From the NCBI GenBank assembly GCA_017397765.1, contig JAFQIB010000103.1, positions 1 through 61,743 on the forward strand: a stretch of 61,743 nucleotides of DNA, given 5' to 3'. A program made the translations under genes and the position numbers. The notes beneath the pieces are model-generated. The model was not told where the DNA came from. It saw only the letters and a list, made by a program, of their open reading frames with translations, and did not search any database. Positions 6,381-6,623 of this stretch are shown here, in pieces. Each line of letters begins with the position of its first letter. The stretch's first letter is position 1. This DNA is from Clostridia bacterium. Lineage in GTDB: Bacteria > Bacillota > Clostridia > Christensenellales > Aristaeellaceae.

Positions 6381-6623
6381 TGTGTCGAAAAAGTGCTTTA
6401 GGCACTTTTTCGAGGAATTGCACTCGCGCACTGGTCGAGCCAAAATGGCTCTCCCGGCCGTTTGCTCGTGTAAGGAAGCGATTTTGCGAGCAAAATCGCG
6501 CGAAAATCGCCGCGCAGGGGCTTCGCCCCGTTTAACCGCCCCGAAGGGGCTCGCCGATTTTCGATCTAAAATCGGAGGGCTTGCGAGCCCTCCGATGCCA
6601 CCCATAGGTTTTTTGACAGTCTG
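6381..6623 (-). repeat. Dispersed structured element, copy A
   Basis: 243 bp with no convincing protein, opposite in orientation to copies B (7421-7628) and C (27901-28132). Read on the minus strand it begins CAGACTGTCAAA and ends TTTTTCGACAC, which gives weak inverted ends (TGTC-A-AAAA against TGTC-G-AAAA). Stems in order on that strand: GGAGGGCT/AGCCCTCC; CGAAAATCG/CGATTTTCG enclosing two small GC hairpins; GCGATTTTG/CAAAATCGC; GAGCCA/TGGCTC; TCGAAAAAGTGC/GCACTTTTTCGA. Conserved single-stranded blocks include CTTCCTTACACGA, ACGGCCGGGAGA and TCGACCAGTG. It could be a MITE-like element, an RNA, or both. Confidence 0.88.

Follow-up and report, generated by a model that had tools for sequence, protein, structure and literature searches.

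A sequence of roughly 200 to 245 bp occurs three times in a 61,743-nucleotide stretch of DNA from a Clostridia bacterium (contig JAFQIB010000103.1; this whole stretch is called the window here), and its palindromic stems differ from copy to copy while remaining stems. What is this element, how did it come to lie where it does, and what has kept its arms paired? The three copies are referred to as A, B and C, and their positions are given in Table 1.

Copies A, B and C can be aligned over most of their length, and the aligned copies bear out the joint changes of paired arms on which the preliminary description was built: CGAAAATCG/CGATTTTCG stands against CGGAAATCG/CGATTTCCG, GCGATTTTGC...GCAAAATCGC against GCTTTTCC...GGAAAAGC, GAGCCA/TGGCTC against GAACGAC/GTCGTTC, and TCGAAAAAGTGC against TCGACAAAGTGC. 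In copy C, helix P4 is not a perfect stem (AACAGC/GCTGGT), and a single-base bulge interrupts the last hairpin. No convincing protein is encoded, as had been stated; open reading frames of at least 30 aa that lie wholly inside copies A to C reach about 75 aa at most and are unlike one another between copies, and the longer frames over these copies enter from adjoining sequence.

Table 1. Positions in the window of the three copies, their structured cores and the hairpins that border them (TSD, target-site duplication).
Feature	Coordinates	Strand	Remarks
Copy A, mobile element	6379-6623	-	left end CAGACTGTCAAAAAACC at 6623, right end near 6379
Structured core of copy A, including GC-rich double hairpin	6385-6565	-	covariance-model match, 132.8 bits
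Copy A, first TSD copy, terminator-type hairpin	6347-6378	.	direct repeat, score 26, 32 nt
Copy A, second TSD copy, terminator-type hairpin	6624-6655	.	direct repeat
Copy B, mobile element	7418-7631	+	left end CAGACCATCAACAAACCCC at 7421
Structured core of copy B, without GC-rich insert	7478-7625	+	covariance-model match, 181.0 bits
Copy B, first TSD copy, terminator-type hairpin	7389-7417	.	direct repeat, score 23, 29 nt
Copy B, second TSD copy, terminator-type hairpin	7632-7660	.	direct repeat
Copy C, mobile element	27899-28134	+	missing at the syntenic site in two same-genus genomes
Structured core of copy C	27949-28129	+	covariance-model match, 139.8 bits
DUF362 gene terminator, distal copy, T-tract included	27878-27898	-	terminator scan; direct repeat, score 15
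DUF362 gene terminator, proximal copy	28135-28156	-	terminator scan; direct repeat

The copies are modular. A GC-rich double hairpin of about 34 nt is present in the first stem of A and C and missing from B, and this segment (GAGCCCCNTCGGGGC...GGGGCGAAGCCCC; window 6517-6552 and 27962-27997) is an optional insert in the P1 loop. The left ~50 nt of copy C are unlike those of A and B, and at the left ends two unrelated modules, either the GGAGGGCTCGCAAGCCCTCC hairpin or the GTCGGCAGACTGNAAAT stretch, alternate upstream of the same core. The left end of A and C reads TTTGACAGTCTG outwards, which puts a TTGACA box at the border, and a suitable -10 box would have to come from the target. No promoter was detected within A, B or C, although the scans used are crude. 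The terminator scan flags a terminator-like site in the core of all three, which for A and B is close to chance (2 found, 1.5 expected).

The preliminary description overlooked the hairpins that flank the copies on both sides. Reading of the flanks showed a hairpin to either side of many copies, identical within a copy and different between sites, and the targets are hairpins of unrelated sequence. Among 35 distinct full copies, 28 score above the 99th percentile of mismatched flank pairs (observed median 17; control median 6, maximum 12), as do 29 of 75 further copies from the same genome and its relatives. In the pooled set a repeat score of at least 13 was obtained for 56 of the 119 distinct copies with both flanks, against 15 of 14,042 mismatched control pairs; the median duplicated repeat is 27 bp, and a fold of -7 kcal/mol or better is predicted for 48 of the 56, compared with 272 of 1,096 same-length segments nearby. 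The other 63 of the 119, which have no duplication detectable by this test, are probably older or damaged copies. These data strongly support the conclusion that the element inserts at hairpins of terminator type and comes to be flanked on each side by a complete copy of the hairpin, ~15-44 bp long.

Intrinsic terminators are A-rich before and T-rich after the hairpin, and the hairpins that flank the element are similar on average: mean counts in the 15 bases that precede the left hairpin are 6.2 A and 2.4 T, and in the 15 that follow the right one 5.7 T and 2.4 A. A T4 or A4 run stands at the place expected of a terminator in only 34 of the 56 duplications, and the terminator scan flags the flanking hairpins of copy C but not those of A and B, the hairpin at 6347-6378 having no long T-run. 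We infer, in part, that the flanking hairpins are terminators. The element shows no bias in its orientation relative to the terminator that it splits, since among the 56 duplications 10 have a T-tract on the right only, 16 have an A-tract on the left only and eight have both, giving 18 with a right T-tract and 24 with a left A-tract. Counts of neighbouring gene orientation were set aside because three attempts at crude gene finding disagree. Given as left/right strands relative to the element, the first yielded -/+ 40, +/+ 37, -/- 23 and +/- 14 (n=114), the second +/+ 27, -/+ 17, -/- 7 and +/- 4 (n=55), a sense bias if true, and the third -/+ 26, +/+ 22, -/- 18 and +/- 12 (n=78); the second attempt calls the gene to the right of copy C (L001) plus, yet the DUF362 gene is on the minus strand.

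Another account of the paired hairpins would be that neighbouring genes merely share similar terminators and that the element is an old intergenic repeat that never inserted. The hairpins of A and B do resemble each other, though they lie at opposite ends of an SH3-domain gene (6720-7385), and A and B are perhaps two linked insertions into related hairpins. However, hairpin pairs match far better within copies than between them, and copy C has an empty site. The DUF362 gene (28166-29035, minus strand) ends in front of copy C and has a full or partial match in 17 of the 18 genomes of the genus, the window's own included. We read downstream of 11 of these matches, again with the window's own, and the core motif is present in none of the 10 others over 420 bases (236 in one); the neighbourhood beyond the gene differs in most of the 10. 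In two of them, G016 and G017, the region past the terminator still aligns with the window (TGTAACTTTT...CCCTATAATGTAT.TGG), and these have the DUF362 gene followed by a single terminator where the window has terminator, element and terminator. We therefore regard a repeat that never moved as extremely improbable.

The window's genome (G000) has one IS1182-family transposase, that of locus L071, an open frame of 481 aa that matches NF033551 at 415 bits (cut-off 270) as well as PF13751 and PF05598. This insertion sequence has the ends CAGCCTGTCAAAAAAGGTCG and, reverse-complemented at the other end, CAGCTTGTCAAAGAAG, and one copy of the element, L006, has the ends CAGACTGTCAAAAAAGGTCG and CAGCGTGTCGAAAAAG. 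Compared by eye, the left end CAGCCTGTCAAAAAAGGTCG equals that of L006 in 19 of 20 letters, and the right ends (TCAGCGTGTCGAAAAAG against TCAGCTTGTCAAAGAAG) agree in 14 of 17. L071 is itself flanked by two identical 25-bp hairpins. Two further IS1182 elements of the bacterial family have hairpin duplications, of 21 bp in L170 (ends CAGCCTGTCAAA) and 22 bp in L166 (ends CAGACCATC), and the second type of end found on the structured element, CAGACCATCAACAAACCCC, resembles the L166 ends CAGACCATC.... The combination of ends and hairpin duplication is found in three distinct elements among the 32 IS1182 loci examined, of which L169 and L188 repeat L071 and L072 and many are truncated where contigs end. 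As a partner we rejected L072, the IS1182 element of G006, which has different ends and no hairpin duplication that we could find.

A search of 31 IS1182 loci for a transposase-carrying copy of the structured core gave no credible model match (best E 0.81), and the insertion sequence was not found in several element-rich genomes (G003, G005, G007, G012 and G014), from which the partner may have been lost or in which it may have been missed. An IS1182-family transposase is the presumed mobiliser, the insertion sequence having been matched to the element by the sequence of its ends. The element carries no transposase gene, has its ends in common with the IS1182 element of its own genome, and shares with it the same kind of target and duplication, as is expected of an IS1182 MITE.

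The copy number of three given in the preliminary description is right for the window, but genome-wide the family is much larger. Plain DNA similarity finds 51 matching pieces in the window's genome (40 of 139 candidates scored), and a covariance model, R1 (148 positions and 45 pairs, from 19 sequences that include the core of copy B), gives 117 matches at E <=0.001, of which 87 score at least 62 bits (150 of 1,247 candidates scored). Some matches are fragments at contig ends, and the true copy number is uncertain. Many contigs of G000 end in the element or within ~60 bases of it (C118, C126, C139, C146 and C28, for example), and the element probably causes part of the fragmentation of this MAG.

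DNA similarity matched 18 of 60 relatives: the window's own genome, 15 of the 17 other genomes of the genus, and two from two further genera of the bacterial family. With R1 there are matches in 42 of 150 genomes and 20 of 50 genera in a sample of the bacterial family, own genome included, and in 15 of 200 genomes in a sample of the order, four of which are in the window's family (own included) and 11 in other families. Six of these 11 have weak matches only (G209, G218, G226, G237, G299 and G300; E ~7e-6 to 5e-4), although the P1 motif can be clearly recognised in G218 and G237. In a sample of the class the window's genome alone matches among 196, with none of the 195 others; the family, order and class searches all scored 15-20 candidates per genome under stricter filters. 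An exact motif search of genome contigs gave 31 stretches. Every one belongs to a MAG whose title reads Clostridia, Clostridiales or Oscillospiraceae, and many are from rectum or colon samples of ruminants. Plasmid and phage records queried with copy B gave no match at the sensitivity used, and viral contigs searched for the exact motif gave none.

The preliminary description could tie the element to no named RNA or MITE family. As regards RNA this stands, for Rfam 15 has no match over the element in the window, and none at gathering score in 6300-7700 (matches with E up to 5 being considered) or in 20 other loci; as regards MITEs it does not, the ends and targets pointing to an IS1182-type MITE. 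The sole match of the window at gathering score is a ribosomal protein L10 leader at 36176-36317 on the minus strand. Two sub-threshold matches to plant miRNA families beside the core of L194 were taken as palindromes. The dispersed family is a candidate RNA family not represented in Rfam 15.

The core is ~150 nt long and consists of five helices, P1 to P5, with linkers. P1 has an internal purine mismatch, and many sub-families carry a GCGACAUGYGCGG-type loop; P2 is followed by the linker UUCCUUAC, which is unpaired in the model and largely conserved, and then by P3, in which the window's type has tandem G·A pairs. Next come P4 and P5, the latter a near-perfect palindrome near the right end, and a further linker reads GGCCGGGAG/CGACCAG. 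In L017, L020, L022, L026, L028, L029 and others there is an insertion of ~100 bp in the P4 loop (GCACGAGGGAGGCGC...CCCGGTGATGGCCGAG) that by eye can form hairpins, and a similar ~100-bp module replaces P1/P2 in L130 and L131.

Covariation is beyond the reach of the three window copies alone, for which the RNAalifold covariation term is +0.45 kcal/mol, i.e. none, and larger sets show it. In 19 sequences 96.1% of the cells pair and 18 pairs change on both sides, neither of which was reached in any of 500 shuffles, and sliding the partners lowers pairing to 36-40%; the number of further pair types is not above that of shuffles (387 of 500). A tree-based null applied to 86 sequences gives 34 column pairs with E <0.05; 30 of these belong to the 45 pairs of the proposed structure, and the remaining four lie within or beside it. 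This null, a home-made approximation of R-scape, simulates columns on a FastTree tree (60 simulations). The sequences come from relatives. Low-scoring hits to the reverse strand, most of which appear to echo the P5 palindrome, were removed by a cut at ~40 bits, the best 42 of 59 and 92 of 128 matches having been kept and the set of 92 pruned of two shorter than 100 letters and four more than 97% identical to another; own-genome copies (alignment A4) were left out and the training sequences of the model retained. The proposal in the preliminary description, that selection acts on a folded RNA or single-stranded DNA beyond mere shared ancestry, is supported by the covariation in both sets together with the wobble bias described below, and its suggested check, a covariance model applied to a wider set of copies, reveals further copies whose stems covary.

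Joint changes of this kind might also arise if mutation itself keeps palindromes perfect, through template switching or conversion between copies, the structure having no function. Multicopy families do undergo conversion, whole arms and modules are swapped between copies (P2, P4 and the left ends), and unpaired columns are barely less variable than paired ones (mean 1.01 vs 1.15 bits). The arm-by-arm exchange could come partly from palindrome-correcting mutation. As a full explanation we consider this quite unlikely, because linkers such as UUCC, CG-CCG and others are more than 90% conserved across the family, column pair 70-104, one of the four beyond the 45 proposed, covaries although 47 rows have A·G there and 31 a Watson-Crick pair, wobbles are biased to one strand, and the same architecture is found in other families of the order.

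The strand bias also bears on whether the core folds and matters as DNA, as a cruciform or single strand serving for instance as a transposase or replication signal in the manner of REP/RAYT or IS200-like systems, with transcription irrelevant. The element's own target is a hairpin, the right end lies next to P5, itself almost a perfect palindrome, and G·T and tandem sheared G·A pairs, which form in DNA also, would be possible there. However, a cruciform in double-stranded DNA predicts G·U and A·C in equal numbers, and we counted 69 independent gains of G·U on the tree vs 26 of A·C (pair 35-54 omitted because of an alignment shift); as plain counts in well-formed helices the numbers are 84 and 35. 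R1, having been trained on a single strand, may lean slightly towards G·U, and as a check an alignment made without the covariance model contains 22 G·U vs 9 A·C cells. The excess of G·U gains means that one specific strand folds, which fits RNA and one strand of single-stranded DNA alike, and both of them better than a double-stranded cruciform. The presumed partner moreover belongs to the DDE family, which is not known to act on single-stranded DNA. A role as DNA is therefore unlikely. That the core is kept as a folded single strand is supported, and that this strand is RNA we infer.

Taken together, these comparisons, all of them of sequence, lead us to propose that the three copies belong to a 200-245 bp non-autonomous element (MITE) that is probably moved in trans by an IS1182-family DDE transposase and whose core is maintained as a folded strand, a reading to which we assign a probability of about 0.75. 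The transposase would join both ends of the element at the 5' feet of an extruded hairpin, and repair would then copy the hairpin and leave one on each side. This corresponds to whole-hairpin duplication as drawn for IS1182-type elements in the hypothetical pathway b (Fig. 13) of Wan et al. 2017 (PMC5678879). Where a T-tract exists, one hairpin copy retains it, and the site would be safe, the gene still terminating and the insertion doing little harm.

With no internal promoter seen, any RNA would come from read-through transcription from outside. The likeliest role, which we put forward tentatively and at somewhat less than even odds, is that the plus-strand fold serves the element in cis rather than the gene whose terminator is split; the folded transcript might render read-through transcripts harmless or tune mobilisation. 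The unbiased orientation relative to the terminator makes service to the split-terminator gene less likely. It is highly doubtful that the core is a working RNA part of transposition, its plus-strand transcript linking a DDE transposase that targets hairpins to the places where transcription units end or start.

Copies from other families of the order bear on whether the host uses the RNA. We read 18 such copies (L193-L195, L197-L199 and L223-L234), all of which keep P1 or an equivalent, P3-P5, and a linker that is of CCUU type or related to it. In family f10 the copies of G254, G237 and G218 lack P2, and L195, also of f10, has it. Among the 18, a flank duplication like those of the window's family was found for L223 alone (36 nt, including a hairpin; scores of the rest <=10), and mobility outside the window's family is thus supported for that single copy; L223, which belongs to f10, lies in sense before a gene of the L-PSP endoribonuclease family. 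Two copies of G254 (f10) are in sense 22 nt before an open frame, that of gyrase B for L197 and of ClpP for L225. L198 and L199, from two species, occupy equivalent positions, in sense and 17 nt ahead of an open frame whose product has PHP and exonuclease domains and which we read as polC-like. These f10 copies before genes, which lack P2, could be 5' leaders, and their sense placement favours an RNA. The core may be older than the mobile form seen in the window, or it may have been co-opted.

These placements speak for a regulatory RNA used by the host, be it a 5' leader, a 3'-UTR element or a trans-acting sRNA that pairs through UUCCUUAC with the Shine-Dalgarno sequence, its mobility being incidental: f10 copies in sense stand 17-22 nt before the gyrase B, ClpP and polC-like frames, the last at a locus common to two species, and the unpaired, largely conserved linker is by eye complementary to an AAGGA-type ribosome-binding site. 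The bcr1-bcr3 elements of B. cereus, moreover, are often transcribed within UTRs (PMC3446304). However, copies in the window's family show no preferred orientation, none of the 10 other same-genus genomes read shares the site of copy C, and other f10 copies, such as L226 and L227, are not in sense before a gene. Host use as the primary function thus seems improbable to us, and service of the plus-strand fold to the element itself remains our preferred, if tentative, role.

Several known systems share single features with this element. Group IIC introns insert at terminator hairpins, and the site is the likeness; here there is no Rfam group II match, and the hairpin duplication and terminal inverted repeats indicate a DNA transposon rather than a group IIC intron. 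The staphylococcal IS1182-family elements IS1272 and TnSha1 insert into inverted repeats and terminator hairpins without sequence preference (PMC5678879, PMC4923244), and they resemble our case in having a hairpin target and in that the partner transposase belongs to the same NCBIfam family. However, they delete or replace the hairpin without duplicating it (PMC5678879), whereas here a hairpin is present on both sides: the element doubles the whole hairpin, lacks a transposase and has a structured core. The B. cereus repeats bcr1-bcr3 are likewise short, non-coding, intergenic, mobile and of high copy number, but the mobility of BCR is linked to a TTTAT motif (PMC6542083), and the element described here uses hairpins of unrelated sequence; this distinction is drawn from the descriptions. 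IStrons combine a structured RNA with an IS-type DNA element (PMC4227781), which is the likeness; they carry a self-splicing group I intron, and here Rfam has no intron match. The open-access literature that we searched, represented mostly by the beginnings of abstracts, reports neither this element nor an IS1182 MITE with hairpin duplication. MITEs, the targeting of hairpins by IS1182 elements, and structured mobile repeats are each already known, and what we did not find in the searched literature is the combination of whole-hairpin duplication, a non-autonomous IS1182-type element, a covarying and strand-biased interior, and occurrence in many species.

The usual view of bacterial MITEs is that they are inert remnants of insertion sequences. 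The element described here provides a MITE that keeps a strand-biased fold of five helices across a bacterial family, and more sparsely in its order, making selection on the interior of such an element testable. It also supplies many natural cases of whole-hairpin target duplication in the IS1182 group, which the IS1272 authors drew as a possibility only, and some of its copies in one sister family lie directly before housekeeping genes. If the core does work as RNA in transposition, the element would represent a class of mobile DNA that relies on its own structured RNA for mobility or tolerance and involves no guide or splicing chemistry, and bacteria of the sister family would have placed such a mobile RNA before gyrB, clpP and polC-like genes.
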